NCBI RefSeq assembly: GCF_964019385.1
Contig: NC_088653.1
Span: forward strand, 13,857,154-13,921,153
Source: Sycon ciliatum
Taxonomy: Eukaryota > Porifera > Calcarea > Leucosolenida > Sycettidae
DNA: 64,000 bases
Direction of reading: 5' to 3'
This document shows, piece by piece, positions 5,350-54,226 of the stretch. Made by a program: the position numbers and the translations under genes. The notes under the pieces are model-generated. The model saw only the letters and a program-made list of their open reading frames with translations. It was not told where the DNA came from and did no database searches. Each line of letters starts with the position of its first letter. Position 1 is the first letter of the stretch.

Positions 5350-6399
5350 TCATGGTTTCGGTGATAAAACTGTTGTAACCACGTTTGCCTTCAAAGATGA
5401 AGCATAATATAATGTTGGAACATTGTTTGCCACCACAGATTCGTCAGATTCGTCAGATTCCTCCTCTGCCCCAGAATACAATCCAGGAAAATATAAACCC
5501 ATTACTGCTTCGTTCCAGTTTACGTCGCTAAGATCAAAAAGCGAAAAGCGGCCATCTTCTTCTAAAACATATTGAAGCGTAATGGATTGAAAGTCAGCAA
5601 GAATATTGAGAAAATATTTGCGAGCGGAAACCACCAAACTTGTGCATAGCTCACAGCCTTCGATAAATATCCGGAACTCTTTAGAGTACTGCCTTGTCTG
5701 AATCAGAAAAGCTAGTACAAAAGCGAACACCTTTCTGAAGTACTGAAGACGTACATCACAATGTGGCTCTATGTCATGGTGTAAGCACTTGAAGTTAAAA
5801 TTAAAACTCAAAGGGTTAAGGCGTTGTTGGGGCCAGGACGGTTCAACTTCGAATTCTAACCTCTCGGTCCTCGTCTCCGCGCCATATAAGCTAAATTCAG
5901 GCCGGCGAACTTCAATTCTGCGGTATTTAGACGAAAAACGTTCCAAACAGCTCAGTAATGATGTTTGGTATAGATAACTGGATGTGAGTGACTGCCATGG
6001 TGGTCCAGTTACCATATTCACTTGTACGCTTTCCCAACTTCCTTTGTAATACAGCGTCCATCGCCAGCTTATAAGCGTCATGACAACTTCAGTTGTCCAA
6101 TGGCTAGGGCAATTGATTACTATCACTGATAAATCATCACGGAAATCTAATCGAAGTCTACGCAATGCATTAACGAAGTTCTCTTCAGCGACACGACCAA
6201 ATTTCCCCAACGAACTACTGCAACGTCCGAGATGTAAGATTAACTTTTCGCATCGGGATAGGTCGAGGGTGGTGTAGCTGAGCAATAGTAAATTAGGACG
6301 AAATTCCAAATGCACAACCTGATTCATCTCAAAGAAATCGTTATGAGGCTCATGATCACCATATACTAAGGACTGAAAATCTACTTCTATATTGACCAT
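5350..6399 (-). CDS. Unrecognised multicopy family protein, copy 1 (intact, 349 aa)
   Basis: Intact single open frame, function unknown. The N-terminus is MVNIEVDF. An aliphatic stretch NLLLLSYTTLDLSRC lies at residues 36-50, VAEENFVNALRRLRL at 70-84, NCPSHW at 96-101, EGCELCTSLVVSARK at 247-261 and LNILADFQS at 264-272. An acidic run EEESDESDES sits at 312-321, and the end is VLSPKP. There is no signal peptide or clear membrane segment. The start was chosen because M(V/I)NIE is conserved in every copy. An upstream in-frame peptide (EAGRILAISWN) is also partly conserved, but copies 5 and 7 have a stop there. The copy is closest to copy 5, including flanks. The hydrophobic repeats could suggest a leucine-rich or alpha/beta fold, but I would not assign one. 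Confidence 0.7.
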   Translation of the reverse strand: MVNIEVDFQSLVYGDHEPHNDFFEMNQVVHLEFRPNLLLLSYTTLDLSRCEKLILHLGRCSSSLGKFGRVAEENFVNALRRLRLDFRDDLSVIVINCPSHWTTEVVMTLISWRWTLYYKGSWESVQVNMVTGPPWQSLTSSYLYQTSLLSCLERFSSKYRRIEVRRPEFSLYGAETRTERLEFEVEPSWPQQRLNPLSFNFNFKCLHHDIEPHCDVRLQYFRKVFAFVLAFLIQTRQYSKEFRIFIEGCELCTSLVVSARKYFLNILADFQSITLQYVLEEDGRFSLFDLSDVNWNEAVMGLYFPGLYSGAEEESDESDESVVANNVPTLYYASSLKANVVTTVLSPKP

Positions 6400-6469
6400 A
6401 TTCCAGCTAATTGCTAGGATACGACCAGCTTCATAAAAACTTGTCAGGATTTATAAAGCACTCTATGAA

Positions 6470-9608: not shown

Positions 9609-10490
9609 TCATGGTTTCGGGGAGAGAAATGATGTAACATCCTTTGGAATGCTATGGAACATATGGCGTGGCATAAAGGATTGAAAATCGGATAGAATAT
9701 TAAGGCAAAATATGAGTGCAGATACCACTAATCTTGTGCACAGCTCGCAGCCAACAATATTAATCATGAAATCTTTCAACAAATCAATTCGCTTTTCCAC
9801 CAAAAAGGCTATGACATAAACGACCAACTTTCTGACGTTTTCAAGTGGGCATCCCGGTAATGAACCCAACGGTAAACAACCGTGTATGCATTCTAAACCT
9901 AAGTAAATGTGGGGAACAGGTGAGGGGGATCCGACTCCATTAGAGAAGTTTAATTCCTCGGTCCATGCCTCATTGCCAAACACAAGATGACTGGACCACA
10001 GATCTAGATATCCGGGGTCTTTAAATTGGATACAATTCAGTATTGACTCCTGGTACAGCTTAATGGACGTGAGCGTCTCCAATGATGACCCGCTTAATAC
10101 TTTTATAACTAGATCTTCCTCATCTCCTTGACACCCTAGATGTCGCAAGAAACAGAGCTTTTCGACAACAATACCTGCCCAATGGCTAGGACAATCGATA
10201 ACTGTTATCCGCAGAACTTTACGACAACTCAAGTGAAGTCTATCCAGTGCATGGACGAGGTTCTCTTCAGCTACATAATCAAATGGCTTCGACGCACTAC
10301 TGCAACCTCCGAGATTGATGATCATACTTGGCCATCGGCATAGGTCGTCGGTGGTGTAGCTCACCAATAATAAAGGGAGATCAAATTTCAAATTCAAAAC
10401 CCGCTGATTCGGAATAGCTTCGTCATAGTCGTCAAAGCCCTCATAATAACCGTCTATTTTGACCCTAAAAACTAATTCTATATTGACCAT
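9609..10490 (-). CDS. Unrecognised multicopy family protein, copy 3 (intact, 293 aa)
   Basis: Open frame starting MVNIELVFRVKIDGYYEG. The frame extends 13 codons further upstream to another ATG (MCEACFILAIRSN), but I chose MVN by comparison with the other copies. It keeps DCPSHWA, GCELCTRLVVSA and FLSPKP. It lacks about 39 residues present in copy 9 between the FHSI-like position and PKDV, a clean in-frame loss of 117 bp. Its nearest relative is the broken copy 9. The poly(A) signal AATAAA seen after copies 4, 6, 8 and 9 is changed to AATCAA here. Confidence 0.65.
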   Translation of the reverse strand: MVNIELVFRVKIDGYYEGFDDYDEAIPNQRVLNLKFDLPLLLVSYTTDDLCRWPSMIINLGGCSSASKPFDYVAEENLVHALDRLHLSCRKVLRITVIDCPSHWAGIVVEKLCFLRHLGCQGDEEDLVIKVLSGSSLETLTSIKLYQESILNCIQFKDPGYLDLWSSHLVFGNEAWTEELNFSNGVGSPSPVPHIYLGLECIHGCLPLGSLPGCPLENVRKLVVYVIAFLVEKRIDLLKDFMINIVGCELCTRLVVSALIFCLNILSDFQSFMPRHMFHSIPKDVTSFLSPKP

Positions 10491-10565
10491 ATTCGACCTA
10501 ATGGCTAGGATAAAGCAAGCTTCACACAAACTTGCAAGGAGTTGTGAAGGACTCAGTCTCTATAA

Positions 10566-12025: not shown

Positions 12026-12276
12026 CTTGTATAATATGGTTGATGAAATATGGTGGTAAAGACACACCTGGCGATATGGCGGTAAACACACGCCTGCCCA
12101 CACACGCTCTCTAAGCTGCACAGTTCTGGTAAAGAGATCTCCTTCTCACCACCACCACCATCAGTTCGCGCCTGGCGCCTCGTCGATGCATGGTTGGCGG
12201 TATCCGACATAGCAGGCTGGTACATACATCAAGTAGCGCATGGCACGGAGAAGATGACACAGCAACGACATAGCTC

Positions 12277-12320
12277 GATTGCGACGCACGTTTCATCCCC
12301 ACTGGACTCATCAGGCAATC
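12277..12320 (-). ncRNA. Type I hammerhead ribozyme, minus-strand unit
   Basis: Minus strand: GATTGC, CTGATGA, stem II GTCC/GGAT (one G-U wobble), GAAA, stem III CG-TG-CG, cleavage triplet GTC, then GCAATC. Stem I pairs perfectly over 6 bp. Predicted cleavage lies between 12283 and 12282. Confidence 0.88.
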
Positions 12321-12596
12321 TTCTTCTTGGATGTCTTCATACGGAGCTTAACTAACATACCGCCAACCATGCACTGACGAGGCGCCAGGCGCGAACTGAT
12401 GGTGGTGGTGGTGAGAAGAAGAGCTCTGTGCCAGAACTGTGCAGCTTAGAGAGCGTGGGTGGGCAGGCGTGTGTTTACCGCCATATTGCCAGGTGTGTCT
12501 TTACTACCATATTTCATCAACCATAAGTACACCTGCAGTGGTGTCTTCAACTTCATTCTCCCGAGTTAGGCTCGGTATGAAGACATCCAAGAAGAA

Positions 12597-12640
12597 AATT
12601 GCCTGATGAGTCCAGCGGGGACGAAACGTACGTCGCAATC
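12597..12640 (+). ncRNA. Type I hammerhead ribozyme, plus unit 1
   Basis: Core CTGATGA at 12603-12609, stem II GTCC/GGAC, GAAA at 12623-12626, stem III CG-TA-CG, and GTC with predicted cleavage after 12634. Stem I is ATTGC/GCAAT (5 bp); the sixth pair is a mismatch here. Confidence 0.88.
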
Positions 12641-12949
12641 GAGCTATGCCGTTGCTGTGTCATCTTCTATGCGCCATGCTCTACTTGATGTACCAGCCTG
12701 CTGTGTCGGATACCGCCAACCATGCATCGACGAGGCGCCAGGCGCGAACTGATGGTGGTGGTGGTGAGAAGGAGAGCGCTGTGCCAGAACTGTGCAGCTT
12801 AGAGAGCGTGTGTGGGCAGGCGTGTGTTTACCGCCATATTGCCAGGTGCGTCTTAACCACCATATTTAATCAACCATAAATACAGCTGCAGTGGTGTCTT
12901 CAACTTCATTCTCCCGAGTTAAGCTCCGTATGAAGACATCCAAGAAGAA

Positions 12950-12993
12950 GATTGCCTGATGAGTCCAGCGGGGACGAAACGTACGTCGCAATC
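12950..12993 (+). ncRNA. Type I hammerhead ribozyme, plus unit 2
   Basis: Core CTGATGA at 12956-12962, stem II GTCC/GGAC, GAAA, stem III CG-TA-CG, GTC with predicted cleavage after 12987. Stem I GATTGC/GCAATC is perfect. Confidence 0.9.
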
Positions 12994-13306
12994 GAGCTAT
13001 GCCGTTGCTATGTCATCTTCTATGTGCCATGCGCTACTTGATGTATGTACTAGCCTGCTATGTCGGATACCGCCAACCATGCATCGACGAGGCCCAAGGC
13101 GCGAACTGATGGTGGTGGTGGTGAGAAGGAGAGCTCTGTGCCAGAACTGTGCAGCTTAGAGAGCGTGTGTGGGCAGGCGTGTGTTTACCGCCATATTGCC
13201 AGGTGTGTCTTTACCACCATATTTCATCAACCATAAGTACAGCTGCAGTGGTGTCTTCAACTTCATTCTCTCGAGTTAAGCTCCGTATGAAGACATCCAA
13301 GAAGAA

Positions 13307-13350
13307 GATTGCCTGATGAGTCCAGCAGGGACGAAACGTTCGTCGCAATC
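13307..13350 (+). ncRNA. Type I hammerhead ribozyme, plus unit 3
   Basis: Same fold as unit 2, with cleavage predicted after 13344. The differences (stem II loop AGCAG, stem III loop TT) fall only in loops, leaving all paired and core positions intact. Confidence 0.9.
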
Positions 13351-13480
13351 GAGCTATGCCGTTGCTGTGTCATCTTCTATGTGCCATGCGCTACTTTTCA
13401 TCGACCATAAGTACAGCTGCAGTGGTGTCTTCAACTTCATTCTCCCGAGTTAAGCTCCGTATTAAGACATCCAAGAAGAA

Positions 13481-13516
13481 GATGAGTCCAGAGGAGACGA
13501 AACGTACGTCGCACTC
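13481..13516 (+). pseudogene. Dead hammerhead (8-bp deletion)
   Basis: The stem I 5' arm and the first part of the CTGATGA core are missing: GAAGAAGAT runs straight into GAGTCC. The deletion lies between two GAT triplets. Stem II and the 3' arm of stem I also carry mismatches. It should not cleave. Confidence 0.8.
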
Positions 13517-13737
13517 GAGCTATGCCGTTGCTGTGTGATCTTCTATGTGCCATGCGCTACACTGTACTTGATGTACCAGCCTGCTATGTCGGATACCGCC
13601 AACCATGCATCGACGAGGCGCCAGGCGCGAACTGATGGTGGTGGTGGTGAGAAGTAGAGCTCTGGGCCAGAGCTGTGCAGCTTAGAGAGCGTGTGTGGGC
13701 AGGCGCGTGTTTACCGCCATATTGCCTTGTATAATAT

Positions 13738-24165: not shown

Positions 24166-24237
24166 GGTCCCATAGCTCAGTGGTTTAGAGCATTGCTCAT
24201 GACAAGCAAGGTCCCGGATTCGAGTCCTGGTGGGTCT
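24166..24237 (+). tRNA. tRNA-like SINE head 1 (probably not functional)
   Basis: 72 nt that fold as a cloverleaf: acceptor GGTCCCA/TGGGTCT with a mismatch, D stem GCTC/GAGC, anticodon stem TTGCT/AGCAA and a T arm with box B GGATTCGAGTCC. The anticodon loop CATGACA has A at position 33, where tRNAs have U, so I treat it as a SINE head. Confidence 0.45.
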
Positions 24238-24476
24238 GGCGATTTTTTCTCTTTTCACTCAGGCAGGTCACTTCCCCAACGGATCCTCTGAATTGGAAGT
24301 TCTCAAAATCATTTCAAAAAATTATCACTCCCTTTCCCTTCTGGTACGGTCAAGAAACTGACCGTAGGCGGTCACTTGGGGGAGGGAGAAAGACCCAAGT
24401 GCCATCAGTATGTGTGGCACGTGTTGTGAGCTGCCTTTGGAGTGAAAAACTTGTCAGCGCCTTCTAGGTTCAGCCC

Positions 24477-24550
24477 GGTCCCATAGCTCAGTGGTCAGTA
24501 GAGCATTGCTCATGACAAGCAAGGTCCCGGGTTCGAGTCCTGGTGGATCT
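24477..24550 (+). tRNA. tRNA-like SINE head 2 (probably not functional)
   Basis: Second copy, 74 nt, with a longer D loop and a better T stem (CCGGG/CCTGG). The acceptor stem is weaker. The same atypical anticodon loop CATGACA is present. Confidence 0.45.
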
Positions 24551-24669
24551 GGCGATTTATTCTCTTTTCATGCAGTTCACTTCCCAAACTGATCCTTTGA
24601 ATTTGAAGTTCTCCAAATCCTTTGCAAAATTTAGTTTATTTTACTTTTTTTATCTTTTTCGACAACGCA

Positions 24670-25769: not shown

Positions 25770-26813
25770 TCATGGTTTCGGTGATAAAACTGTTGTAACC
25801 ACGTTTGTCTTCAAAGATGAAGCATAATATAATGTTGGAACATTGTTTGCCACCACAGATTCGTCAAATTCGTCAAATTCTTCCTCTGCCCCAGAATACA
25901 ATCCAGGAAAATATAAACCCATTACTTCTCTGTGCGATTCTGCATCGCTAGAATCAAAAAGCGAACAGACGCCAACTTCTTTTAAAACATATTGAAGCGT
26001 AATGGATTGAAAGTCAGCAAGAATATTGAGAAAATATTTGCGAGCGGAAACCGCCAAACTTGTGCAAAGCTCACAGCCTTCGATAAATATGCTGAATTGT
26101 TTAGGGTACTGCCTTTTCCGAATCAGAAAAGCTAGCACAAAAGTGAACACATTTCTGAAGTACTGAAGACGTACATCACAATGTGGCTCTATGGCATGAT
26201 GTAAGCAGTTCAAGTTAAAACTATACCTGAAGGGGCGTTGTTGGGGCCAGGACTTTCCAAATTCGAATTCTAACCTCTCGGTCCTCGTCTCCGCGCCATA
26301 TAAGCTAAAATCAGGCCAGCGAACTTCAATTCTGTCGTATTTAAACCATAAAAGTTCCAAACAGCTCACTAATGATGTTTGGTATAGATAACTGGATGTG
26401 AGTGACTGCCATGGTGATCCAGTTACCATATCCACTTGTACGTTATCCCTTCTTCCGTTGTAATACAGAGCCCATCGCCAGCGTATAAGCGTCATGACAA
26501 CTTCAGTTGTCCAATGGCTAGGGCAATTGATAACTATCACCGACAAATGATCATGGAAAGCTAATCGAAGTCTACGCAAGGCATTCAAGAAGTTCTCTTC
26601 AGCAAAACCACCAAATTTGCCCAACGCACTACTGCGACGTCCGAGATTTAAGATTAACTTTTCGCATCCGGATAGGTCGAGGGTGGTGTAGCTCAGCAAT
26701 AGTAAATTAGGACGAAATTCCAAATGCACAACCTGATTCATCTCAAAGGAATCGTTACGAGGCTCATGATCACCATATTTTAAGGCCGCAAAATCTACTT
26801 CTATATTGACCAT
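25770..26813 (-). CDS. Unrecognised multicopy family protein, copy 5 (intact, 347 aa)
   Basis: Very similar to copy 1 along its whole length, with NCPSHW, EGCELCTSLAVSARK and VLSPKP all present. The acidic run is EEEFDEFDES rather than EEESDESDES. A stop codon (TAA) lies in frame 14 codons upstream of MVN (YEAG is Y-stop-AG here), which fixes the start in this copy. The flanks match copy 1 from about 25250 to 27110. Confidence 0.7.
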   Translation of the reverse strand: MVNIEVDFAALKYGDHEPRNDSFEMNQVVHLEFRPNLLLLSYTTLDLSGCEKLILNLGRRSSALGKFGGFAEENFLNALRRLRLAFHDHLSVIVINCPSHWTTEVVMTLIRWRWALYYNGRRDNVQVDMVTGSPWQSLTSSYLYQTSLVSCLELLWFKYDRIEVRWPDFSLYGAETRTERLEFEFGKSWPQQRPFRYSFNLNCLHHAIEPHCDVRLQYFRNVFTFVLAFLIRKRQYPKQFSIFIEGCELCTSLAVSARKYFLNILADFQSITLQYVLKEVGVCSLFDSSDAESHREVMGLYFPGLYSGAEEEFDEFDESVVANNVPTLYYASSLKTNVVTTVLSPKP

Positions 26814-26889
26814 ATTCTGGCTAATTTCTAGGATAAGACCAGCTTAATACAAACTTGTGAGGAGTTATGAAGGACTCAGTCTCTATGAA

Positions 26890-27644: not shown

Positions 27645-28400
27645 ATAATAGTGATAAAAGATGGAACATGCAGTCAGTCGGTAAAGCGATGATTGTGAAC
27701 TGGGAATGTGCAGCATTTAGTGCAATATGCGCACCAGGGGGGCAGTTTTACATTATAGTACTGCCAACCGTGCTGCAACCCACAGTCAACTGGGAAATTG
27801 TGCCCAGGCACAAGGGGTACATGGATGAGGCTAATACCATTATCGGCACTTGTGCCAGTGGTTGTGAGACTTTTACAGGGTGATAGCGGCCGTCGTGAGT
27901 TCCCTTCGGGACCGGACACGATAATTTCTTACTGCCCCTTGGTGCCGCACAATTGCTCAGCACTAACAATTCAGTTGAAGGGCATATAATCGCCGAGGAT
28001 GGTGCTAAGGTGCAAACCGACTCTAACGTCGAATCTCTGCAAACATTTTTGGCAATATAGGACCTCTACGGAAACTGTCTGATACTCAACGCCTCAGCCT
28101 GTCCCTTGCAGTATGTTTAGTCAGACAGCATGCCTATCGAGGGGGGGGGGGGGCGTTTGCGAAGGTTGGCAACAAACTAAAATTTATGCGCTGTCCCCGA
28201 TCTAAACCAGCCACCAAAATATCAGCCGTACAGTGGCACAGTGGTGAAATGAATTGCTATACTAAGGGATGTTTGCAAGCAGAAAACAGTCATGGGCAGC
28301 AGACAGAGACGTGCGTTTGACTGGAACGACCTAGACAGAATTTATCAGTGCCAACGCAAGACAGTTGGCGGCCGACTTCCTACTGATCTTGATATGTACA
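27645..28400. repeat. Spacer modules upstream of copy 5
   Basis: Includes the insertion-like block 27758-27935 shared with 7303-7510, the recurrent block around 27990-28080, a run of 13 G at 28141-28153, and at 28305-28415 a plus-strand stretch that reads RRAFDWNDLDRIYQCQRK and recurs at 50050. Confidence 0.55.
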
Positions 28401-28404
28401 TGGC

Positions 28405-31050
28405 TGAATGCGCTGAATGTTGCTGTGTCAGGGCCCACAGTCCGCAGTTATACAACAGGATAGGCAAAATGAGGGCAGAGAAAATACAAAGTCTGGAGCT
28501 CAGTTTATTACGCTTCCACGAAATGGAGCCAAACGCTCTATTCGCAGCACCTATTCTTGCCTGAATATCCTCTGCGGACCCTAACAAAGAGCCAAGGAGC
28601 TTGACAGATCGCCAAGAGGAGTCGGCTTTAGTTACTGTAATATATTGTGTTTTCTGAATATTTAACATTAGGTTATCTTCTTTGAATTTTTCACTTGATT
28701 TCTCCACAATCTCCTCGACTTCTCGCCTCTCCGTGTCATGGATTGCTGTGTCGTCTGCATATTCGGTGGTTGGTGCTGGTAAAGATAAGTGCGATAGTAT
28801 AGGATCAAGGTGGTGCATGGCTTCCTCAGCATACTTATTGTACATGATGGGAGAGACCGGATCCCCCTGCACTACTCCGATATTTGTAGCAAACGCTTTG
28901 TCTAAATGAGAACTGAGTCTCACTCTCACCGTCGTGTCCGAGATCAGAGTGGCAACGACATCAGTGGCAGCTCCAGAGTCTGAAAATCGCGCCAACGCCT
29001 TCTCACGGACAATGGTATCAAATGCTCCGCTGAAGTCTAATAGTGCGGCAGAGTATTTCCAGTCACCGAGTAGTGCACGTTCGCACATGACACGCGTATA
29101 GAAAACTCCGTCAGCCGTGGAGCGTCCGGGTGTAAAGCCTGCCTGAATTTCACGTACATATGAGGTGGTAGATTGTTGTGAACGCATGGTGATGATGCGG
29201 GTCAGCACCTTGCGAACAACTGATAGCAGCATGACCGGTCTATAACTTTTCGGTGCACCCATAGGTTTTTCTCGTTTGTATACTGGCACCAGAAGGCCAC
29301 ATCTAAGGCCAGGTGGGCAATAGTGGAGTTCCTTAATGGAGTTGAATAGGGTAGTCAGCCATGGAGTAATGACAGTCGAAGCCGTACGTAGCAGTGCCGC
29401 ACTGATCCCATCACATCCAACAGCGCCTCCGATTTTCTGGTGCATGATGGCCTTCCTAATCTCTTCAGAGGTAAATGGTTCGTCTTCTGCCTTACTGTTA
29501 GTTTGTGCTGGGGAAAGCGTTCGCTGGTCGCTCCGGTAAAACACTGATGCGAAATACTTGCTGAATTCCTCCAAATTCCAATTTACATTTGTGACATTTT
29601 CACCACTATCCTTTGCGAGTCGTACTGGGGAAGGTTTGTCAGGATTTCGAAGTGCTTTTAGCTGTTTGATGGCATTGAAGTACGATCTTGCATCCGGGCG
29701 TAATGCGTCCACCGCCTCCGCTTTGTGCTGCCAATATAAGTCACCTTCGTTTCTGAGTAATGCTCGGATACGGTGAAGGATCTTGTTTCTACTTTGTGTT
29801 AGTTCTTTCCGCTTGTTCGGATCTTTTTCCATATGTATCCGGCTGTGGATTTCTTTTTGTTGAGTTGATAGCTGAATAACAGCAGGGCTCGTACTTCTAG
29901 CAATCCTCTTCTGTGGTTTCTTTCTTCCAAATGCCTTTTCCGCTGCTGCATGGGTAGATGACACAAATCTCTCCCAGGTTTGGTCTAGCGTGGAAATATC
30001 TTCAGGCAGGGTGTTTATGTCTGGCAACGTGCTTGCATTTTTGAAACTTTCAGCAGAGTCTTGTGTGGGTTCGTTATACGTGATGAAACAGCGGTCGTTG
30101 GTTGCTTTAGATGTTGTACACCGCCAGAATGTTAGTCGAAAATCTGCAATAACCGGATGGTGATCGGATCTTGTTCTGAATCCACCGTATGATCTGGCAT
30201 TTACAACGCGCACTGTGTTTGATCTTCGCATTATCACAAAATCAATCATGTTTCGAACAGGTTGGCCATCCCTGTGTACGAGCCCATCCGAGAACCATGT
30301 CGAACGATGCTGCATACGATGGTTGAACATGGTGTTGCATAAAATCAGATTTTGCTCCTCACACAGCTCAATCAGTCTCTCACCGTTCGCGTTGCTTGAT
30401 ACGTGCTTGGAGAAACATCCCACTGCACCTCCTGAAGCAGGTCGGGCGCTCCCTATTTTTGCATTCAGGTCTCCCAATATCATAAAAATTAATCATCTCT
30501 TCTACTGACCTCCCGGGCAATACCTCGTAGTGCGGAGTAGAAGTCATCTGTTTCCTGAGGATGTGATGTCGAGCGTTGCAGCGTCGGAGCGTAGCAGCAG
30601 ATCACCATGAGGGAGTTGCTGTCAGGTCGAGGTCCATCTCGGAGACGAACTTATATAATCCGTTCGGAGATAAATTTGTACGACTCCACATTATTTATTA
30701 GTTTCTTGTTGATGAGAAGGCCAACTCCAGCTCTGGACGACGAGCCACCCGAACGATACAGAACATGTCCGTTGTCGTACGTGTCTACACCGGCTCCGTT
30801 CAGCCAGGTCTCCGTCAGTCCGAGGATGGCAAGCCTGTATTGTTCGAAATCTTGTATTATTGTAATTTTCTTGATGTTGCTTTTCAAGGAACGAGCGTTG
30901 AACGTTCCTGCTCTGTGGGACGAGTCATTCTTACTGCGCTCCGTAAATATAGTTGCCTTCGGCATATTCAAGCAACTCATCTAGTAGCAACTTATCTGTC
31001 TGGAAACATTATCAAGGAACAAAAGTCTCTCGCAAGAGCGAGAGCTGCCG
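28405..31050 (-). mobile_element. RTE-type LINE, endonuclease plus reverse transcriptase, nearly full length
   Basis: Minus strand. The endonuclease N-terminus (30651-30980) reads GTFNARSLKSN, LGLTETWLNG and AGVGLLINKK. After two small frame changes (30484-30650) the main frame (28345-30483) gives ILGDLNAKIGS, MIDFVIMRRS and SDHHPVIADF. RT follows: PVYKREKPMGAPKSYRPVML, LLDFSGAFDT, VVQGDPVSPIMYN, and the catalytic EYADDTA. The combined endonuclease and RT style is that of the RTE clade. It entered the array spacer: both flanks are array modules, and the last ~18 codons of the open frame are spacer. The frame changes suggest it is inactive but relatively young. Confidence 0.85.
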
Positions 31051-34303: not shown

Positions 34304-35287
34304 TCATGGTTTGGGGGAAAGACATGTTGTACCATAGTTGGCAATCAGAGATTCTCGAAATTCTTCATCTGATGTCAAATACCAAGTAGGAGGACAAACT
34401 ACATCAATCGATAATCCGCTTCCATTCGCATGGGAATGGCTCCAATTCCACAAAAGGTTAATCCTGTAGAACATGAAGTGTGGCATAAAGGATTGAAAGT
34501 CAGCTATAATATTAAGGCAAAATACGCGTGCAGAAACCACTAATCTTGTGCATAGCTCACATCCAGCAATATCTATCGTAAACTCTTTACACCAACCATT
34601 TCGCTTTTCTATCAGAAAGGCTATGACATAAACGACAAACTTTCTGACATTTTCAATTGGGAATCTCGAACTCGAGCCTAACAGTACGCAATCGTGTATG
34701 CACTTTATATTGAAACATGAAATAATGCTTGGGTAGCAGACTTCACTACTGAAGTATAATTCCTCACTGCTCCATCCAGAACCAACCCAGCTATAAGTGC
34801 ACCTCCTAGCTTGATTTTCGGGGTATATTCTGTGAATACAATTCAGTAATGACTCCTGGTACAGATGACTGGGTGTGATCGTCTCCAATGATGATCCGCT
34901 TACTACTTTGACATCAATAATCTCTCTAGATCCTTTGACATCTGGTGTTCGCCAGAAACAAAGCTTCTCGACAACTTTAGCCGCCCAATGGCTAGGACAA
35001 TCGATAACTGTTATCCAGAGATCTTCATGACAAGCTAAATGAAGACTATCCAGTGCACGCACGAAGTTCTCTTCAGCTACACCATCAAATGGCTGCGAAG
35101 CACTGCTGCAATCTCCGATATTGATGACTATACACGGGCAACGGCATCGGTCGTGAGTGGTATAGCTCTCCAATAGTAAAGTGGGACCTAATTTCAAATT
35201 CAAAACTTGCTGAATCGGAACATTCTCGTCATAATCATGATAAGAAGCGTGTTTTTCGACAGTAAAATCTATTTCTATATTGATCAT
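34304..35287 (-). CDS. Unrecognised multicopy family protein, copy 6 (intact, 327 aa)
   Basis: The start is MINIEIDF (V to I), then LLLESYTTHDRCRC, VAEENFVRALDSLHL, IDCPSHWAAKVVEKL, AGCELCTRLVVSARVF, DFQSFMPHFMF and CLSPKP. It is the intact sister of the broken copy 8. The upstream palindrome has decayed here (TCCTTCGAACGT at 35364-35375), so either the site is dispensable or this copy is poorly expressed. A canonical AATAAA follows the stop on the minus strand. Confidence 0.7.
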   Translation of the reverse strand: MINIEIDFTVEKHASYHDYDENVPIQQVLNLKLGPTLLLESYTTHDRCRCPCIVINIGDCSSASQPFDGVAEENFVRALDSLHLACHEDLWITVIDCPSHWAAKVVEKLCFWRTPDVKGSREIIDVKVVSGSSLETITPSHLYQESLLNCIHRIYPENQARRCTYSWVGSGWSSEELYFSSEVCYPSIISCFNIKCIHDCVLLGSSSRFPIENVRKFVVYVIAFLIEKRNGWCKEFTIDIAGCELCTRLVVSARVFCLNIIADFQSFMPHFMFYRINLLWNWSHSHANGSGLSIDVVCPPTWYLTSDEEFRESLIANYGTTCLSPKP

Positions 35288-35399
35288 ATTCTCGCTAATT
35301 GCTAGGATAACACCAGCTTCATAAAAACTTGTCAGGGGTTGTGATGGACTCAGTTTCTATGAATCCTTCGAACGTGACCGACCAGATTTCAGCTGCTCT

Positions 35400-37571: not shown

Positions 37572-38096
37572 ATTCTCTCAGCTTCCCCTGCTGCTACTTC
37601 AATATCACTGAATAATTATAATATGAGGCGGGTCACTCAAATCCATTCTGTTCATGATGCCTCGTCGCGTCCCTGGTGGTAACAGTTTGGCATGGAAGTT
37701 TAACCTCATAGTGCATTGACTCATGGGGCTCCGTGCTCCCCTGCTGTGCTAGAATTAACACCATAATTATTTGGCATGTGCCCTCACTTCGTAGAGCACA
37801 ACGGCGCGCTCTTCTTCTCCGTGATGTGCACAGTTGCACCTTCTCTCTCCCCCCCCCCCTCTCTGTATAGAGGTGACATAGCTCGCATCATTTTTTTTTG
37901 GCGCTACACTCTGCGTAACGCCATTCACAGAGCACAATGCGCGCTACCTTCTGCTGCTTCTCCTTCGTGATGTGCTAGTTGCGCCTTTTCTTTCTCTCTG
38001 TCCCCCCTTCTGCATACTAGGTGACATAATTCGCATCTTTTTTGGCGCTACACTCTGCGTATATACTGCTCTTGTGTGGCTTCCACGGTATTCATT

Positions 38097-38142
38097 GTTA
38101 TTACCTGACGATGGCCACGTGCCGAAACGTTGTAAAAATAAC
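38097..38142 (+). ncRNA. Candidate hammerhead ribozyme in right PLE repeat
   Basis: The inverted partner of the left copy: GTTATT at 38097-38102, CTGACGA at 38105-38111, GAAA at 38124-38127, GTA ending at 38134, AATAAC at 38137-38142. It differs from the left copy at one base in the stem II loop (CAC versus CAA). Confidence 0.55.
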
Positions 38143-38173
38143 GGAACTGGTTCGGATGTGATGTGCAGCGCTA

Positions 38174-41100
38174 TGGAGCCAGACTCATTCTATGACATTC
38201 CAGATTACACACTCTACAGACAGGACAGAACAGAAACGATGGGTGGAGGTGTTGCTTTATACATACATGCCCCTACCTGCCACAAACGCCTAACAACAGT
38301 CGTCATGCCAAGCTTTCAGTCACTGTGGGTAGAGCTTACACTCTCAGATCGTACAGTCACCGTGGGATGCACGTATCGACCACCAAACTCTGATCCGAAT
38401 TTATTCTGCCGCGAACTTGAATTGTGTCTCGGGAAATGTAACACCACAGCGCCATTCATCCTCCTCGGCGACCTAAATTCCAAGAACAGCTCTTGGTTGC
38501 ATTTTGATGTCACAGACAGAGCTGGTGACGCACTTAGCTATCTTATCGATGCATATGGTTTCCATCAGCATGTAAACTTTGCCACCCACATCTGCCGAGG
38601 CTATCTAAATTCGTGCCTCGATCTAGTCATCTCCAATCTCCCTCCGGAGGAGGTCACACTTTCTTCCAGAGCACCGCTTGGGTGTTCAGATCACGTAGCA
38701 ATCCAGGGAACTATCTCCATGCAGCCACCAGCAGATGAGCGTGGCAGACGTAACCTGCCACTTTGGACCTGGAACTGGAATTCAGAGAACGTTGGCGCCC
38801 TGAGAGAAGCGCTAGCGTATACTCAACTCTTGCCACCCGACATTGACTTGCCGTCATATTCGCTGACCGAACTGTGGTCGCTCTGCGGTGACACTCTGCT
38901 TCGCACCGCACACCAGTTCTGAACTCAACTCCGGTTGACTAGATCATCTGCAGTGTCTCAAAAACGCCCATGGATGACGCCTGATCTGCTAAATAATATC
39001 CGTACAAAGCACAGGTTATACAGGAAATACCTCCGGACACGGACGGCTGAAGACTGGGACCAGTTCACAACTCAGCGAAACAAGACAACAACTCTTCTCC
39101 GCAGCGCCAAGTCCAAATTCGTTCATAAATCAGCCAATGCCGACAACCACTGTGACCAAACCCATACCAACCGCCCAAACCTCTACAAACTTATGAAGAC
39201 CCTTCGAATTTCACCAAGAAAGGAAATGCCAGCTTTGAACCATGATGGCAGGAAGCTCACATCGAACTTAGAGCAGGCAGAAGCATTCAACAGCTTCTTC
39301 ATTTCAGAAAGCAAGAAGTCCGTCTCAGTTGACAACGAGCCAGTCCCCGACATCCTTCTACCAACATCCGGCGAGAGAGAGCTTGCCCAAATCACCACCA
39401 CACCCGCCGAGGTAGAACAGCTCCTAGGAGCCCATAATCCTTGCAAAGCCCCTGGGTTTGACGACATCCCAACAACACTCCTCAAGACCACGGCGCGTGA
39501 GCTGTCGCCGTCACTCTCCCGACTTTTCAATGAGTCATTTCGGAGAGGTGAACAACCACAGGACTGGCGTGATGCCACTGTGAGCCCACTATACATGAAA
39601 GCCGAACGGTCATTGGTAACAAACTACCTATATCACTTCTCAGCGTTATCAGTAAAGTGCAGGAGAGGATCGTCCACAAGCGACTCTACAAGCACGTCAC
39701 ACCCTTCCTCCCAGTGGATCAATCCGGTTTTCGTGCCAATGATATCACCGAACTCCAGCTCGCCAGACTCGTGCACGAGGTTTCCGAGAGCCGAGATAAA
39801 GGTCTTTCCGTCACAGCTTGCTTTTTTGATCTCTCGAAGGCTTTCGACAGAGTCTGGCACGCCGGTCTCCTCAAGAAACTGCAACACCTCGGCCTGAAAG
39901 ATACCGCCCTGCAATGGATGGTCAGCTACCTCACCCATCGCCGTCAACGTGTTCGTGTCGGCGACGCCTTCAGTGAATGGCAAGCCATACCAGCAGGGGT
40001 GCCCCAAGGATCCGTTCTAGGCCCCCTGCTGTTCTTGATCTACACCATTGACCTGCCCTCTGCCTGCACCAACTCGAACACAAAGTGCAGCCAATTTGCA
40101 GATGACACGGCGCTCATCGCAACACACCAGAGCCGTTTGACATCGGAGTTGTCCCTGCAGTCAGCCGTTTCAGCTGCCTCAACCTGGCTGCGCAGATGGC
40201 ACCTCCTCGTCAATGCCTCAAAGACCGTTACCTTGTCGTTCACACCAAACAACCAACTCAACATCACTCTTAATGGCACACCCCTAAAGCAAGTCAAAGA
40301 ACACCGTCACCTTGGAATCATACTACAAAACAACCTCGAATGGAACTCACATGTCACGCACATAATAAACAAATCCAAAAAACTCCTTCACCAACTTCGT
40401 AAAACACGAGGCCAACTTAACACCCCCAGTCTGCTCGCAATCTACACCGCCTACATTCGCCCGGTTATAGAGTACGGCAATCTCGTGTTATCCAACACCA
40501 CCCGCACACAGAAGGACCAATTAGAACGCCTTCAGAGACGAGCAGCCCGTATCTGCCTGCGGATCCCCCTTTTTGCACCAGTCCATCACAGCTCACTTCT
40601 TCATCATCTCCAACTCCCCACATTAGTCTCCCGGCTACTCTTACGACAGGTTACTCTTGCCCACAACATCAAGTCCATCCGCGCTCCCCTTCACCTGCAA
40701 CAGCCTCACCTTGCACGACCAATCACAGAGCAGCCATATGCACTACGACACATGAGAACATACACATTGAGAACATCACACACATACCGACACACCAACT
40801 CACCCATCAACATAAAAAAATAAAAAAAAATAAAATAAATTTCACGGTTCGCGTGAGACTCGGCTTGAAGCCGAGTTTTCCGCATCCGCCGTGGGAACGC
40901 CACCACCCTCTAGGATCAAAGGCGCAGATGCAGCGCCTAAACGGTGGGAGGTGAGTAGATCAGACCCACCACCAAGTGGTCAAAGACCGAAATCCCATTA
41001 GCTGCATCCATGAACCCATCAACATATCCCTTCACAATTTCAACCAACTACCCCCCGACCTGCGTGAAACAAATAGCAAGCATGCGTTTAAATCAATGGC

Positions 41101-41290
41101 GTCTAGCCTCATTCTATCATCCATATGCTCCTGTAGTAGCTCACACTGTACCCCATCGTGACCCCATCCCCCTGCAATGTGTTGGTTTCCTTACTTGCTA
41201 GACTGATTTTATATGATTCTGGACTGATTTGAATCATATTATCTTCCTTATTGGCCATGGGCCATCGTGGAAATAAAGAATAACAATAAC
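38174..41290 (+). mobile_element. LINE with endonuclease and RT, 5' truncated, interrupted
   Basis: Starts in mid-endonuclease (YTLYRQDRTETMGGGVALY), then ILLGDLNSKN and GCSDHVAIQG, an in-frame TGA at 38920-38922, then PWMTPDLLNN and NPCKAPGFDDIPTTLL. A frameshift occurs near 39620. RT continues with FFDLSKAFDRVWHAGLL, GVPQGSVLGPLLFLIY, the catalytic FADDTAL, and EHRHLGIILQNNLEWN. The C-terminus resumes after a 199-bp insertion (40815-41013) with NQLPPDLRETNSKHAFKSM. The 3' end has AATAAA and an AATAAC repeat tail at 41272-41295. It is CR1/Jockey-like in style. Confidence 0.85.
40815..41013. mobile_element. 199-bp structured insertion with 13-bp target duplication
   Basis: Flanked by ACCCATCAACATA at 40802-40814 and 41014-41026; its removal rejoins the LINE frame. 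It begins with an A-rich run and contains three hairpins: TCACG/CGTGA (40842-40856), ACTCGGCTT/AAGCCGAGT (40858-40876) and GGCGC/GCGCC (40921-40937). There is no coding capacity and no hammerhead core. The A-rich end is on the left of the plus strand, odd for a SINE in either orientation. Confidence 0.72.
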
Positions 41291-41294
41291 AACT

Positions 41295-42325
41295 CTGCTG
41301 CTTTGGCTGCAGCTCCCGCGATTGTACATATTTCTCCCTGCACTTCACGTTCTACTGATTTCACAAGCGCATGTCCTGCTGCCCACACACCCCTCTCTGT
41401 TTCTCGCTTCGAATCACTGCTCCGTAACCACCCTGACAGTTCATTGGCTTCGTATGTTATTAACGGCCTCCACTGCGGCTTTGACATTGGCTTTACCGGC
41501 AACCGCATAACTAACCAGCACTCGTCCAACCTCTCATCAACATTCCAGCACTCTGCATTTGTGTCTGCACAGCTCACCGCTTCCTGCAACGCCGGCTACA
41601 CGGCTGGCCCATTTGATTCGCCCCCATTCCCATTCATGTACTGCTCTGGCATTGGCGCCGTTCCGAAAAAGAATGGCAAGCTACGCTTGATACACCACCT
41701 GTCCAGCCCTGCCGGCTCCAGCGTTAACGACGGGATCCCTGCCGAGCCTTTCTCTTTGCAGTACATCAGCATTGATGAAGCCATTAACATCATTATGTCC
41801 TCCCCGTCTCCTGTCTATCTCTCTAAATTCGATGTGAAGAGCGCTTTTCGTCAGCCCACAGGATTGGCATCTTCTCGGCATCCTGTGGCAGGGGAAGTAC
41901 TACTACGACCGTGTCTTGCCATTTGCCCTAATTTGCTGCATTTCCTGGACGACTACTTGTGCGTGAGCGTGGGCCAGGCAGTGGCGAATCGGCAGCTGGC
42001 CATTCTTCTCCGTGCATTCTCATACCTCGGAGTCCCGCTCGCGCCTGCGAAGGTGGAAGGCCCGTCTCGTACCCTGACATTCCTGGGCATTATCCTGGAT
42101 TGTGAGAAGATGGAAGCCCGGCTCCCTGATGACAAATTGGCTGACATCAAGTGCCTGTTGACTGCAGCGAGCATCAACCCCACCATGTCTAAACACGAAC
42201 TCGAATCTCTTCTGGGGAAACTCTATACTTCGCTGCAAGAGTCATCGTACCCGGCCGGACATTTATGCGGCGCCTGTGGTCTATTTGCAGTCGCTACCAG
42301 CAGCCTCACTACCGCATCAGTCTGA
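41295..42325 (+). pseudogene. DIRS-type reverse transcriptase, frameshifted
   Basis: Reads HCGFDIGFTGNR, GPFDSPPFPFMYCSGIGAVP, KKNGKLRLIHHLSSPAGSSV and YLSKFDVKSAFRQ. Then a frameshifted stretch follows whose alternative frame gives DWHLLGILWQGKYYYDRVLP. After that comes the catalytic FLDDYLCV, FLGIILDCEKMEARLP and ELESLLGKL. The order is that of DIRS-group RT. The segment between the frameshift and FLDD is shorter than usual, so an internal deletion is likely. Confidence 0.8.
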
Positions 42326-42864
42326 CTACCGAGTGCCAGGAAGATATCCAATGGTGGCTACGGATCCTGGAACAATGGAACGGAAAATCATTCTTCCTGT
42401 TCCCAGATTGGACACCATCTCCAGACTGGGAGCTGTTCACTGATGCCATTGGCACCCTGGGCTGGGGCGCATTCAACAGCGGCCGCGGGCTTCAAGGGAC
42501 CTGGTCGCCTGAGAAACTCGCTCACAGCATTGAGTGGAAGGAGCTATACACGTTAGTCACAGCGTGCTGCACGTGGGACAAGGAATGGCGCCAGCTTCGT
42601 ATCACAGTGCACTGTGACAACAAGGCGGTGGTAGATTGCATCCGCTCCGGCACATCCAAGTCACCGCCAGTGATGACCCTGATCAGGGAGCTGTTCTTTG
42701 TGTGCGCCCGCTTCAATTTCACCGTCGCTGCTGCTCACATTGCTGGCCAGTCGAACTGCATTTCCTATTCGCTGTCTCGTTTCCGCATGGAGGAATTCCG
42801 GCGTCTCGCCCCAGCTGCTCAAGCACAACCAGACCGAGCAGTGCTGCCATTCCAGCCGAAGTAA
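42265..42864 (+). pseudogene. DIRS-type RNase H domain
   Basis: Overlaps the RT frame. Reads QWWLRILEQWNGKSFF, WELFTDAIGTLGWGAF, HSIEWKELYTLV, VHCDNKAVVDCIRSGTSKS and AAAHIAGQSNCISYSLSRF. The last motif is normally ADALSRF, so the final catalytic aspartate appears lost. No tyrosine recombinase follows before the terminal repeats. Confidence 0.75.
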
Positions 42865-45060: not shown

Positions 45061-46042
45061 ACATCGGATTAGAAGAATTCTGCAGTTCGTAAAGAGGTTA
45101 TAATGAAGTCGGAACGAGCAGCATTTGGTTTAGCAATTTGTACTGACCAATCGTTCTTGTTGCGAATATAATGTCGGTTGAAACCTATGTGAAAGTCTAT
45201 GATGGTGCTAAGCTGAAAACCTACACTGCCGTTGATGCCGTAGTATCCCCTTTGGCGCTACATGCCCTCTGCAGAAATCTGTCTGATCATCAGTGGTCGA
45301 AAATATCCTCCGCTTCTTTGTTGTATAATAATACAGTATTATTGGTCGGGAGGGGTGGGGGGGGGGGACAAACGCCAATGTAGCGCTGCACCCGATGTAA
45401 ACGAAGCACGAAAACAATAGATATATTGGTGATACGGCACTGACGTCACCTGCTGCGAAAGTAAGATCTGAGGATAATCTCGAACAGAAACCATTCATAC
45501 GCTGTAGACATACAGGAGTTTGACTGGAATGACATTGACCCGGCATTGACCTATGAACTAATGATGGCCCTTTTCCTTCAGACACGGTTATGCTGCTTAG
45601 GCACAGGACAATAGCCCTTTCAGCAAGATGCTACCTGGATGTCTCCTCACGTCAACACTTGTGAAAGTCGAATTTTTCCCATGAAAGTACTACCTATTGA
45701 AGGATCGATACCTTTACCTTCCCTTGGACAAATTCCCCGATCTTCAGCTTCCTCGAGAGGTCTTGAAACGAGGAACAAAATAATTGAAAACTCAGCTCGG
45801 CGCGAATCCCAAAGACAGTGCTACAGTCTGGCAAAATTCCCCCACATCACTGGCGTGACACAACAACTAAATATAAATGCAAACCAATTGCGTATTACAA
45901 AATGTTCTTTAGAAAATGAAAATTGAACTTGACAATCTCCACACAATGCCCAATCCGTTCATGATAGTCTCTGTTAGATCAGTCTGTGTCCGTTACCCGT
46001 GTTAGCTAGGTACCAACAAGCATTAACGTACATGCGCAAACA
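45061..46042. repeat. Spacer paralogous to 11870-14310 without the retrozyme array
   Basis: Aligns with the flanks of the ribozyme array. The empty site lies at about 45316-45340 (CTTTGTTGTATAATAATACAG). A run of 11 G is at 45357-45367. No gene is seen. Confidence 0.6.
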
Positions 46043-46975: not shown

Positions 46976-47971
46976 TCATGGTTTTGGTGATAGAAATGTT
47001 GTAACAACGTTTGTCATCACAGATTCTTCAGATACTTCATCCGACCTACAAAATATAAACAATGGGTCTTGTCTTCCGCTCACACGCCTTAGCACTACCG
47101 GGTTCAAATTTGGCTGGCTACGATCAAAAGAAGAAAAGCGGCCTTCATTTGTGAAAAATAATTGAAGCGTAAAGGGTTGAAAGTCAGCGAGAATATTGAG
47201 AACATATTTGCGAGCGGAAAACACCAAACTTGCGCATAGCCCACAGCCTTCGATAACCATCCTGAACTCTTTAGAGTACTGAGTTGTTTGAATCAGGAAA
47301 GCTAGGACAAAAGGGAACACCTTTCTGACGTACTGAAGTGGTATATCAAAATCTGACCCTATTTCATGGTGTAAGCAGTAGGATCTAAAATGAAGCGTCA
47401 ACGGGTTGAGGCTTTGGTGGGGCCAGGACGGTGCAAATACGAATGATAACCTCTCGGTCCTGGTCTCCGTCACATACAAGCTAAATTGAGACCAGGGAAT
47501 TTCAGAGTTGCTGTATTTAGACGACACACATTCCATGAAGTTCAGTAATGATGTTTGGTAGAGATAACTGGGTGTGATTGACTGCCATGGTGATCCAGTT
47601 ACTATATCCACTTTTAGGCTATCCTCACGTCCTTTGCAGCACAGCGAACATCGCCAGTTTATAAGCGTATCGACAACTTTAGTGGTCCAATGGCTAGGAC
47701 AATCGATAACTGTTATCGACAAATCATCATGGAAAGCTAATCGAAGTCTACGCAAGGCATTCACGAAGTTCTCTTCAGCGACACCATTAAATCTCCGCGA
47801 TGCACTACTGCAACGTCCGAGTTGTAAGATTAATTTTTCGCATCGGGATAGGTCGAGGGTAGTGTAGCTCAGCAATAGTAAATTAGGACGAAATTCCAAA
47901 TTCACAACCTCGTTATGAGGCTCACGATAACCATGTCCAAAGGCCCGAATAGTTACTTCGATATTGACCAT
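46976..47971 (-). CDS. Unrecognised multicopy family protein, copy 7 (intact, 331 aa)
   Basis: Third member of the copy 1/5 subfamily. It lacks about nine residues near position 20 (REPHNEVVNLEF versus HEPHNDFFEMNQVVHLEF). It keeps IDCPSHWTTKVV, EGCGLCASLVFSARK (two changes in the otherwise conserved GCELCT) and FLSPKP. The acidic run before the end is reduced. An in-frame TAA upstream of MVN fixes the start. Confidence 0.68.
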   Translation of the reverse strand: MVNIEVTIRAFGHGYREPHNEVVNLEFRPNLLLLSYTTLDLSRCEKLILQLGRCSSASRRFNGVAEENFVNALRRLRLAFHDDLSITVIDCPSHWTTKVVDTLINWRCSLCCKGREDSLKVDIVTGSPWQSITPSYLYQTSLLNFMECVSSKYSNSEIPWSQFSLYVTETRTERLSFVFAPSWPHQSLNPLTLHFRSYCLHHEIGSDFDIPLQYVRKVFPFVLAFLIQTTQYSKEFRMVIEGCGLCASLVFSARKYVLNILADFQPFTLQLFFTNEGRFSSFDRSQPNLNPVVLRRVSGRQDPLFIFCRSDEVSEESVMTNVVTTFLSPKP

Positions 47972-48047
47972 ATTCTAGCTAATTGCTAGGATAAGACCAG
48001 CTTAATACAAACTTGTCAGGAGTTATGAAGGATTCAGTCTCTATGAA

Positions 48048-48968: not shown

Positions 48969-50043
48969 TAGTAGTAGTAGTAGTAGATTTTATTATTTTA
49001 CTAGGGGAGTCCCAACAGGCGTTGCCTTTTTACTGGGAACCCTAGGTGAATTTTTACCATGTTTACATACAGAGTAAGAGACGGGGCCTGACGGCAGTCA
49101 GTGGGAAGAGCATTCCATCTGTCTGCCGCCAGGAAAGAAATAGAACGCATGCCATATTGCGTAGAAACAGGCGGAAGAACTAATGCGCGCTGTGCCTGGC
49201 CGCGCGTGCGAGCCTGGTGTCCAGGCACAGCAGCCCTAAGCTGGAACAAGGATTGGAGAAGGGGACTAGCAAGATGTGGGGTCAAGCAGCGGTACACGAA
49301 AACATAGAGTTTAAGATTTGTGCGCTGTTCAAAAGAATAGAGATGATATTTGCGGAGAACAATTTCAGTAGACATCATACGGTCAAACCCAAAAACTTTC
49401 TTCATTGCTATGTGACTGACCGTCACGATTTTATTGAACAGGGTGGCGCTGAGACAGTGCAGATAAGCGTTACTGGCATAGTCGAGAGTCGATTGCACAA
49501 TGGATAAATAGAACGTCCTCTTCGCTTCAGGTGTTAGGTTTTTTCGGCCATGTCTGAAGGCGGCAATCTTGCCGAACACCGCACCGCAGACCTTCTCGAC
49601 TTGCGGCTGGAAGGTGAGATGCTCGTCGATGAGTAGTCCGAGATACTTCACGGTGGCTGCAGGGGTGAGGGGCTTGCCTTTACAAACTAGGGGGATTGGT
49701 AGATGCGGCACAGGTTGGCGTGGGCGCCGAAGGACCAGGAACTGCGTCTTGTCAGGGTTCATGAGAAGTCCTTTGTCATCAAGGTAGAGCTCCAGAGCGC
49801 TAAGGTCATCCTGAAGCTTTCGCAGCATGACAGAGAGGTCCGTTCCAATGACGAAAAAGGCGATGTCATCGGCATAGAGCTGAGAAATACTGTTCCGAAC
49901 AATCTGTGGAACCTTGCGGATGTAGACGCAAAAGAGGAGGGGGCCAAGGACGGACCCTTGCGGAACTCCCCTGGTGCAGGGCACAGTCCCACCACGCTCC
50001 CCATTGACCACGACTTGTTGACTTCTGGAGGACAGATAGTCCC
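48969..50043 (-). mobile_element. LINE, 5' truncated, RT C-terminal half
   Basis: The open frame 49001-50011 begins in the RT palm: GVPQGSVLGPLLFCVYI, catalytic LYADDIAFF, NPDKTQFLVLRR, VKYLGLLIDEHLTF, and ends RWNALPTDCRQAPSL...FPVKRQ. The minus-strand 3' end has a CTA repeat (TAG on plus, 48969-48986). The flanking AAAGAG at 48963-48968 and 50044-50049 is a probable target duplication. The frame is undamaged, so the insertion may be recent. Confidence 0.85.
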
Positions 50044-50049
50044 AAAGAG

Positions 50050-50236
50050 ACGTGCGTTTGACTGGAACAACCTAGACAGAATTTATCAGTGCCAACGCAA
50101 GACAGTTGGCGGCCGACTTCTTACTGATCTGGATAAGTACAGGACAGAATGCACTGAAGATGACATAAAAATTGAAGTTTATAATCTCCTGGTCGGGCAC
50201 AGGAGATTCCAATACAGGCACAGATATGCTCAGTGA
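50050..50236 (+). other. Coding-like spacer module
   Basis: Open on the plus strand: RRAFDWNNLDRIYQCQRK, GGRLLTDLDKY, DDIKIEVYNLLVGHRR, then QYRHRYAQ and a stop. Versions occur at 7870-7975 (with a stop), 28305-28415 (open until the RTE insertion), 36260-36350 and 56910-56990 (decayed). It could be an exon of an ancestral partner gene or an old repeat. Confidence 0.3.
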
Positions 50237-53514: not shown

Positions 53515-54226
53515 GTAGCCCTTTCTCAAAGGTGCTGGCCATTTTTTGCGCTTTTTTTGGCCCTTTTGGGAAAAGCCCGTTTCTTTCACCCTTTATTGCG
53601 TTTTTTTGGTGAATATCGCCCTTTCTGTGCTTTTTTACCTGAAAAAGTGCTAAAATCTGTTTGCTCATGCATGCGATCACTGTTTCCGAGTGCACCATGG
53701 TCCTTGGCACGCCGCTTTTCTGGGGGGGGGGGGGGGGGGGGGCAACAAGTAGTGTACCCGGTGTACACAATGCTGTAAAAAGTGGATTTCTTGAACTTTA
53801 CTTTCTGTTTTGCCTTTCGAGGACCCATGACTGGAAGAGCGCGTATTCATTTCTCAGCTTGTGTTCATATCTGAGTATGCATCATTGCTATGCTTCACTG
53901 AAAAAAGAGGTTTTGCCTATTTTCACTGAAAAAGAGCACCTTTGGCCTTTTTTCGCTGAAAAAATAGCACTTTTTGCCTGTTTTCACTGAAAAAAGAGCA
54001 CTTTTGCCTGTTTTAACTGAAAAAAGAGCATTTTTGCCTGGTTTCAGTAAAAAAAGGAGCACCTGTTGCCAGTTTTCACTGAAAAAGAGCACTTTTTGCC
54101 TGTTTTCACTGAAAAAAGAGCACTTTTTGCCTGTTTTCACTGAAAAAGAGCACTTTTCAGCATATTACGAGGGGCGCGAAAAGCACGAAGTGCGAATTAA
54201 CAGAGGACCTTTGGGAAAGGGCTAGC
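53515..54226. mobile_element. Element with 18-bp inverted ends and internal minisatellite
   Basis: The ends TAGCCCTTTCTCAAAGGT (53516-53533) and its inverted partner (54207-54224) differ at one base. A CGTGT duplication (53510-53514, 54227-54231) is likely, and removing the element gives the spacer seen at 9355-9375. No transposase is encoded. 53722-53742 is a run of 21 G. Confidence 0.68.
53893..54160. repeat. ~30-bp minisatellite
   Basis: About nine imperfect units of TTTTCACTGAAAAAAGAGCA followed by CTTTTTGCCTG, lying inside the inverted-end element. Open frames across it are products of the repeat. Confidence 0.85.

Follow-up and report, generated by a model that had tools for sequence, protein, structure and literature searches.

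At positions 12026–13737 of the 64,000-nucleotide stretch of DNA analysed in this work (hereafter, the window), non-coding hammerhead units of about 355 nt each form a 1.69-kb insertion bounded by 12-bp target duplications. As claimed in the preliminary description of this DNA, the whole array lies between duplicate copies of its target; indeed, sequence comparison places CTTGTATAATAT both at the left end (12026–12037) and at the right end (13726–13737). An inverted arm of 0.9 unit (319 nt; 12035–12353, minus strand), whose first 3 bases are also part of the left duplication, is followed by a junction of 3 nt unlike either arm (12354–12356) and by a direct tandem array (12357–13726, plus strand), whose first unit is 5'-truncated and one of whose units carries a large internal deletion near 13394. 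The two arms, a minus unit and a plus array, are joined head-to-head, a feature absent from the preliminary description, and the 3' ends of both point to the target, at different unit positions: about 240 (site A, see below) for the inverted arm and 208 for the plus array. The window insertion is not a plain tandem multimer.

The retrozyme sits inside a tandem cluster of paralogous reading frames of ~230–370 aa ending in LSPKP, all of them on the minus strand (5350–6450, 9609–10559, 25770–26843, 34304–35356, 46976–47974, and 54484–55185); the three frames scanned with Pfam (those at 5350, 25770, and 34304) gave no match. One paralogous spacer (about 45256–45403) contains both flanks and, as previously proposed, the undivided target site: the alignment through the joined flanks revealed a single copy of the site near 45320, with an extra TTTG and, close by, a T-to-A substitution. 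The junctions and flanks of the window copy recur at L011 and L013, also on this contig (88–91% identity), which implies that the window copy was duplicated along with the gene cluster. It is also an old copy, its two full units having 16 differences. The window also includes reverse transcriptase frames, LINE-like apart from one that is DIRS-like by eye (28345–30492, minus strand; 37882–40823 and 41228–42864, plus strand; 49001–50071, minus strand), a tandem array of 8.7 copies of a 30/61-bp unit (53894–54157), and two tRNA-Ser-like matches 311 bp apart (24166–24238 and 24477–24551); the tRNA-like matches, which are also found in repeats beside the retrozymes of L014 and L018, may belong to a tRNA-derived SINE.

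The search with the Rfam covariance model Hammerhead_1 (RF00163, gathering score 34) bore out the hammerheads of the preliminary description, matching four of the five window units. Three type I motifs are on the plus strand, at 12950–12993 (cleavage after 12987; 35.4 bits), 13307–13350 (cleavage after 13344; 33.1 bits), and 12598–12639 (cleavage after 12634; 30.8 bits), and one is on the minus strand, at 12277–12320 (cleavage after base 12283; 30.6 bits). The first one exceeds the gathering score and the other three lie just under it, with E values of 1e-5 to 7e-5 in the local scan. The fifth motif (13475–13516, plus strand), which gave no Rfam match, is dead, as already described, since it carries an 8-nt deletion, to which the helix I 5' strand and the first bases of the CUGAUGA core are lost. 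The plus-strand cleavage points are spaced by 353 and 357 nt, in agreement with the unit of ~355 bp previously recognized; genome-wide, the unit length ranges from 351 to 357 nt (66 units), the commonest value being 352 nt (38/66). A MIR898 match, below its gathering score, corresponds to the fold-back of the minus arm with the first plus unit and was discarded.

The coding potential of the unit is minimal: the longest stop-to-stop frames in four joined unit copies are of 89 and 78 aa, and the ORFs of the array, of only 60–85 aa, encode neither a reverse transcriptase nor a GIY-YIG endonuclease. Since no protein is encoded by the unit, the retrozyme itself is not a PLE. The GC content is 52.1% for the array and 52.7 and 50.7% for two units. 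The helix III strand, ACGUACGU, is palindromic; the lone motif is predicted to misfold at −10.5 kcal/mol, and two copies to co-fold as a double hammerhead at −30.0 kcal/mol, which agrees with the description of amphibian retrozyme hammerheads as dimers in the sections of the literature considered here. The hammerhead fold was not clear in the minimum free energy prediction for a circular unit. If these predictions are correct, folding as a dimer only would permit the cutting of multimers and would leave single circles closed.

The genome from which the window comes (538 Mb, 313 contigs) was then searched with the unit, giving at least 213 matches among the best candidates, those that were scored and listed; these are dispersed over many contigs, as expected for the retrozyme family of this genome that had been suggested from the window. 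Thirty-nine loci from the match list, chosen by their similarity to the window unit and independently of their arrangement, were mapped together with the window copy on a 352-nt unit whose position numbers start at the cleavage point. RF00163 matches were present in all of the 20 further loci scanned (74 matches above the gathering score). Forty-one insertions were mapped, and 32 non-redundant ones were kept after dropping nine duplicate rows (L022, L023, L040, L034, L035, L038, L047, L011, and L013); L022 and L023 have the right flank alone in common with L021, and their left end lies at site B, not A. One insertion cut by the edge of the sequence taken (L015, 1–729) was left out of the end counts, which refer to 31 insertions; all the results on end geometry come from this one genome. 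The insertions comprise from 1.5 to 17.9 units, and 20 of the 32 are flanked by target duplications; hence, the idea of insertion as a multimer holds well beyond the window, and the family does not consist of satellite arrays without duplications, the finding that would have spoken against it. The longest insertion (L044, 791–7098; 17.9 units) contains a variant unit pair that recurs every five units, perhaps because of unequal exchange or of the assembly.

The analysis of the arms revealed a very regular geometry. Twenty-one of the 32 insertions are head-to-head, none is tail-to-tail, and 11 are one-stranded. In the 31 insertions with usable ends, 46 of the 51 outer 3' ends fall at one of two sites, A (231–247) or B (264–285), against 5.7 expected, the two intervals having been drawn after inspecting the end positions. 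Both sites (A at ~239 and B at ~277) are internal to the unit and about 38 nt apart. The 5' ends of the same arms, which represent an internal control for this clustering, are evenly spread (8/51 in the A and B intervals; KS p 0.80). Where both 3' ends are on-site, one A is paired with one B in 15 insertions out of 15, with offsets of 28–44 nt, mostly 37–43. Five insertions not cut by an edge have one off-site end, namely the window copy (208), L016 (176), L021 (149), L030 (24), and L039 (202); the window copy, with only one end on-site (A), is thus an outlier. In the one-stranded L029, the 8 bases preceding the duplication look, by eye, like a very short plus-strand piece whose end is at B. 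A separate observation concerns unit positions 183–227, where two 26-bp sub-repeats contain potential hairpins (GGCG..CGCC and GGTG..CACC) with a paired change between them; site A lies 13 nt past the second sub-repeat, and the odd end of the window copy ~11 nt past the first.

The position of the ends relative to the hammerhead is also informative. None of the 51 3' ends is within 8 nt of the cleavage point; thus, priming from the 3' end of the self-cut RNA is not the rule. The 5' ends are not enriched there either (3/51 within 8 nt, with 2.3 expected), so that there is no sign of a linear self-cut RNA as the usual template, and a template stopping at the cleavage point was rejected. At the arm junctions, the gap between the two 5' ends ranges from −4 to 8 nt. 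The target duplications are 9–15 bp long (mode 12) with 69% A+T in the 20 insertions mentioned above, and in the remaining 12 no duplication of at least 9 bp was found. In the control with mispaired flanks, matches were mostly of 4–6 bases and reached at least 9 in 36 cases out of 1640, many of which correspond to duplicated or simple-repeat flanks.

A GIY-YIG search of the same genome gave 13 matches. The six reading frames compared with Pfam all contain GIY-YIG, and one also matched RVT_1, at 27.4 against a cut-off of 29.6. Eight PLE loci carry minimal hammerheads, five of them with inverted repeats around them. In one PLE family, some copies stop at ...TTCG and others 38 nt beyond, after ...CTTCGTT. 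Eight head-to-head pairs of a PLE family were analysed, which had been selected for matches in both orientations, so that their head-to-head state is not an independent count; in six of them the offset is 32–40 nt, and six have duplications of 11–13 bp. The seventh pair (L071), which is among the six with duplications, has a long and a short end and a deletion inside the tail, and the eighth (L073/L074) has two short ends and no duplication; in the pair L069/L070 the duplication match falls in a simple repeat. Two further PLE families show, by eye, one long and one short end, at one locus each.

Three comparisons revealed no significant sequence sharing between the retrozyme and the PLEs. When the unit was compared by blastn with the eight PLE loci, no match appeared at E 1; local alignment of the start regions, made for three PLE families, gave scores equalled by 739, 577, and 538 of 2000 shuffles; and in the anchored comparison site A ranked 249th of 352, with the PLE tail motif fitting best at the hammerhead. 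The motif AGCTGC, of which the unit has a single copy (tail position 9) and which three PLE families carry at positions 8–9 of the tail, is a weak, after-the-fact lead. At the locus L031 (408–2695), a retrozyme array of ~2.9 units lies between an inverted PLE end (408–801) and PLE coding sequence (from 1861); we did not count it as proof of template switching, as a nested insertion with target loss fits equally.

On the basis of the head-to-head arms, of the two fixed 3' ends, one of each per insertion, and of a PLE in this genome that has a matching geometry, the retrozyme was very probably moved by PLE machinery. The connection with PLEs, which the preliminary description had given as background knowledge, gains in this way a support of its own, and the match in geometry points to a PLE protein as the probable enzyme. 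We consider it highly probable that the window array represents one insertion of an animal-type (non-LTR) retrozyme that used a PLE reverse transcriptase-endonuclease through the following cycle. Multi-unit transcripts would cut themselves at the hammerhead, possibly in the predicted dimer fold, and a host ligase would close the monomers into circles, as for published retrozymes. A PLE protein, probably a dimer, would make a nick in each strand of an AT-rich target, with a stagger of about 12 bp, and reverse transcription would begin at the internal sites A (~239) and B (~277), one per nick; the insertions show the staggered cuts, the copying from both of them, and the start sites with their A/B pairing. 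Each reverse transcriptase would run through the cleavage site and copy several units, a step visible in the insertions, where copying past that site extends for up to about 18 units, and that might be easiest on a circle. The two 5' ends, located at random positions, would finally be joined, giving the head-to-head arms between target duplications that the insertions display.

Different explanations might be proposed for the same array. Mobilization by a LINE, with the inverted arm deriving from LINE-type twin priming, is unlikely in our opinion, even though twin priming likewise yields a 5' inversion, 3' sides facing outward, and duplications, and LINE-type reverse transcriptase frames are present in the window. 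Twin priming leaves the inverted part with an outer end at a variable internal position and places the other end at the 3' end of the RNA, whereas here both outer ends fall at fixed sites inside the unit, one at A and one at B in 15/15 insertions, an arrangement also seen in a PLE of this genome. It has also to be considered that a small non-coding unit with a hammerhead recalls a viroid-like circular RNA able to replicate by itself and reverse-transcribed only occasionally, and RNA-to-RNA copying of retrozymes has been raised in the sections of a review devoted to them (PMC7761336). However, the genomic insertions are frequent and regular, unlike what rare capture would lead one to expect, and the hammerheads recorded here are on one strand of the unit, apart from the inverted DNA arms; hence, this origin appears very improbable. 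Least credible of all is ordinary satellite DNA, generated by unequal crossing-over and inversion and carrying a hammerhead by descent. The tandem units, the copying of the window array and of L011/L013 with their flanks within a local gene cluster, and the five-unit repeat of variants in L044 would all fit it, but the dispersal over many contigs, the duplications in 20/32 insertions, the fixed ends, and the empty paralogous site do not; given the duplications and the empty site, satellite dynamics are refuted as the main cause and retained only for later changes within the arrays.

A more serious alternative retains the PLE machinery and changes its template, which would be a linear multi-unit transcript, the hammerhead serving another step or the trimming of the ends. 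A multi-unit RNA would by itself account for multi-unit inserts, and in the parts of the work on the anole PLE considered here (PMC11167929) insertion was unchanged in hammerhead mutants, the main substrate being unprocessed RNA. The mixed units of some insertions (a median of 7.5 differences in L043 and up to 9 in L030) also speak in its favor. Nevertheless, the median difference between units of the same insertion is 0 in 5/11 insertions and at most 1 in 7/11, compared with a median of 7 for units from different insertions; the nearest unit lies in the same insertion for 46/55 units, and L041 and L044 consist of one major unit type with private changes. We hold the linear template to be a possibility worth keeping, albeit a somewhat doubtful one. 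The near-identity of the units suggests, at the level of sequence, a circular RNA template; the circularity of the template is less certain than the involvement of a PLE. The mixed units of L043, L030, and the window copy possibly reflect age or a mixed template.

The insertion geometry represents direct evidence tying this retrozyme family to PLEs. In the sections considered of Cervera and de la Pena 2020 (PMC7229834), PLEs are named only as strong candidates for the mobilization of animal retrozymes, and the parts of a 2020 review (PMC7761336) concerning metazoan retrozymes describe them as devoid of any conserved motif that would reveal their autonomous partner. A link between retrozymes and PLEs based on insertion geometry was not found in a search of the open-access literature, and the paired, head-to-head form of insertion is absent from the retrozyme text consulted in PMC7229834. 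Moreover, our data define two exact candidate start sites on the RNA, which are open to assay with the purified protein, and a very short natural RNA template, which illuminates the poorly known reaction of PLEs, i.e., the paired starts and the joining of the arms.

The comparison with other hammerhead elements helps in placing this one. Plant LTR retrozymes, described also in sections of PMC7229834, are likewise non-coding hammerhead elements with a circular RNA as the presumed intermediate, and they differ in having type III hammerheads, an LTR, a PBS, a PPT, and 4-bp duplications. In the same genome, an Rfam search, in which 74 of 76236 first-look candidates were scored, revealed other hammerheads, among them seven loci of a second family with a 226-nt unit (L089–L095; G000 C12, C13, C14, C2, C7, and C1). 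It shares with the retrozyme the type I hammerhead and, in 3/7 copies, the tandem units, whereas its sequence is different, its 3' end is immediately past the hammerhead, and none of the seven copies is head-to-head. Clear duplications flank L091 (13 bp) and L092 (16 bp, around a 50-nt solo ribozyme fragment), and this family may use other machinery, an indication resting on 7 loci. We give about even chances to the more general idea that animal retrozymes of this kind are SINE-like partners of PLEs, multiplied by paired rolling-circle reverse transcription, in which the ribozyme would produce the circular RNA, a PLE dimer would use two fixed starts on this circle, and two reverse transcriptases would each run several rounds, so as to yield head-to-head concatemers within a single insertion, the second family being moved in another way.

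As for the PLEs themselves, the available sections of PMC3846280 describe in a rotifer PLE inverted head-to-head pLTRs, 8–9-bp duplications, and an optional 31-bp tail, and those of PMC11167929 (2024) an anole PLE that cuts and extends both strands of an AT-rich target, with a tail that is as long as the interval separating its two internal starts and that is termed unique to PLEs. With such Penelope/Poseidon-type elements (PMC3846280 and PMC11167929, in the parts cited; L061–L068 in this genome), the retrozyme shares head-to-head and tandem copies, a hammerhead, ~12-bp AT-rich target duplications, and a tail of 30–40 nt at one end only. Unlike them, it encodes no protein, is built from 352-nt units, and shows no detectable similarity to the eight PLE loci, and its hammerhead possesses helix III residues that are missing from the PLE motifs of this genome.

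A further close parallel is offered by metazoan non-LTR retrozymes as described in sections of PMC7229834; like the retrozyme of this genome, they consist of tandem non-coding units a few hundred bp long, each with its type I hammerhead, and have multimeric insertions and target duplications of more than 4 bp; the unit length also fits the metazoan range of 150–450 bp. Some differences exist: the sections of PMC7229834 describe direct tandem repeats, and the word "inverted" is absent from its main text, whereas the insertions of this genome are mostly head-to-head and have two paired internal 3' ends; the GC content is 52%, against less than 50% in the part of PMC7229834 that reports it, a value that we take as a reported property and not as a definition. 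On the whole, the element agrees with metazoan non-LTR retrozymes in its main features and in its way of working.
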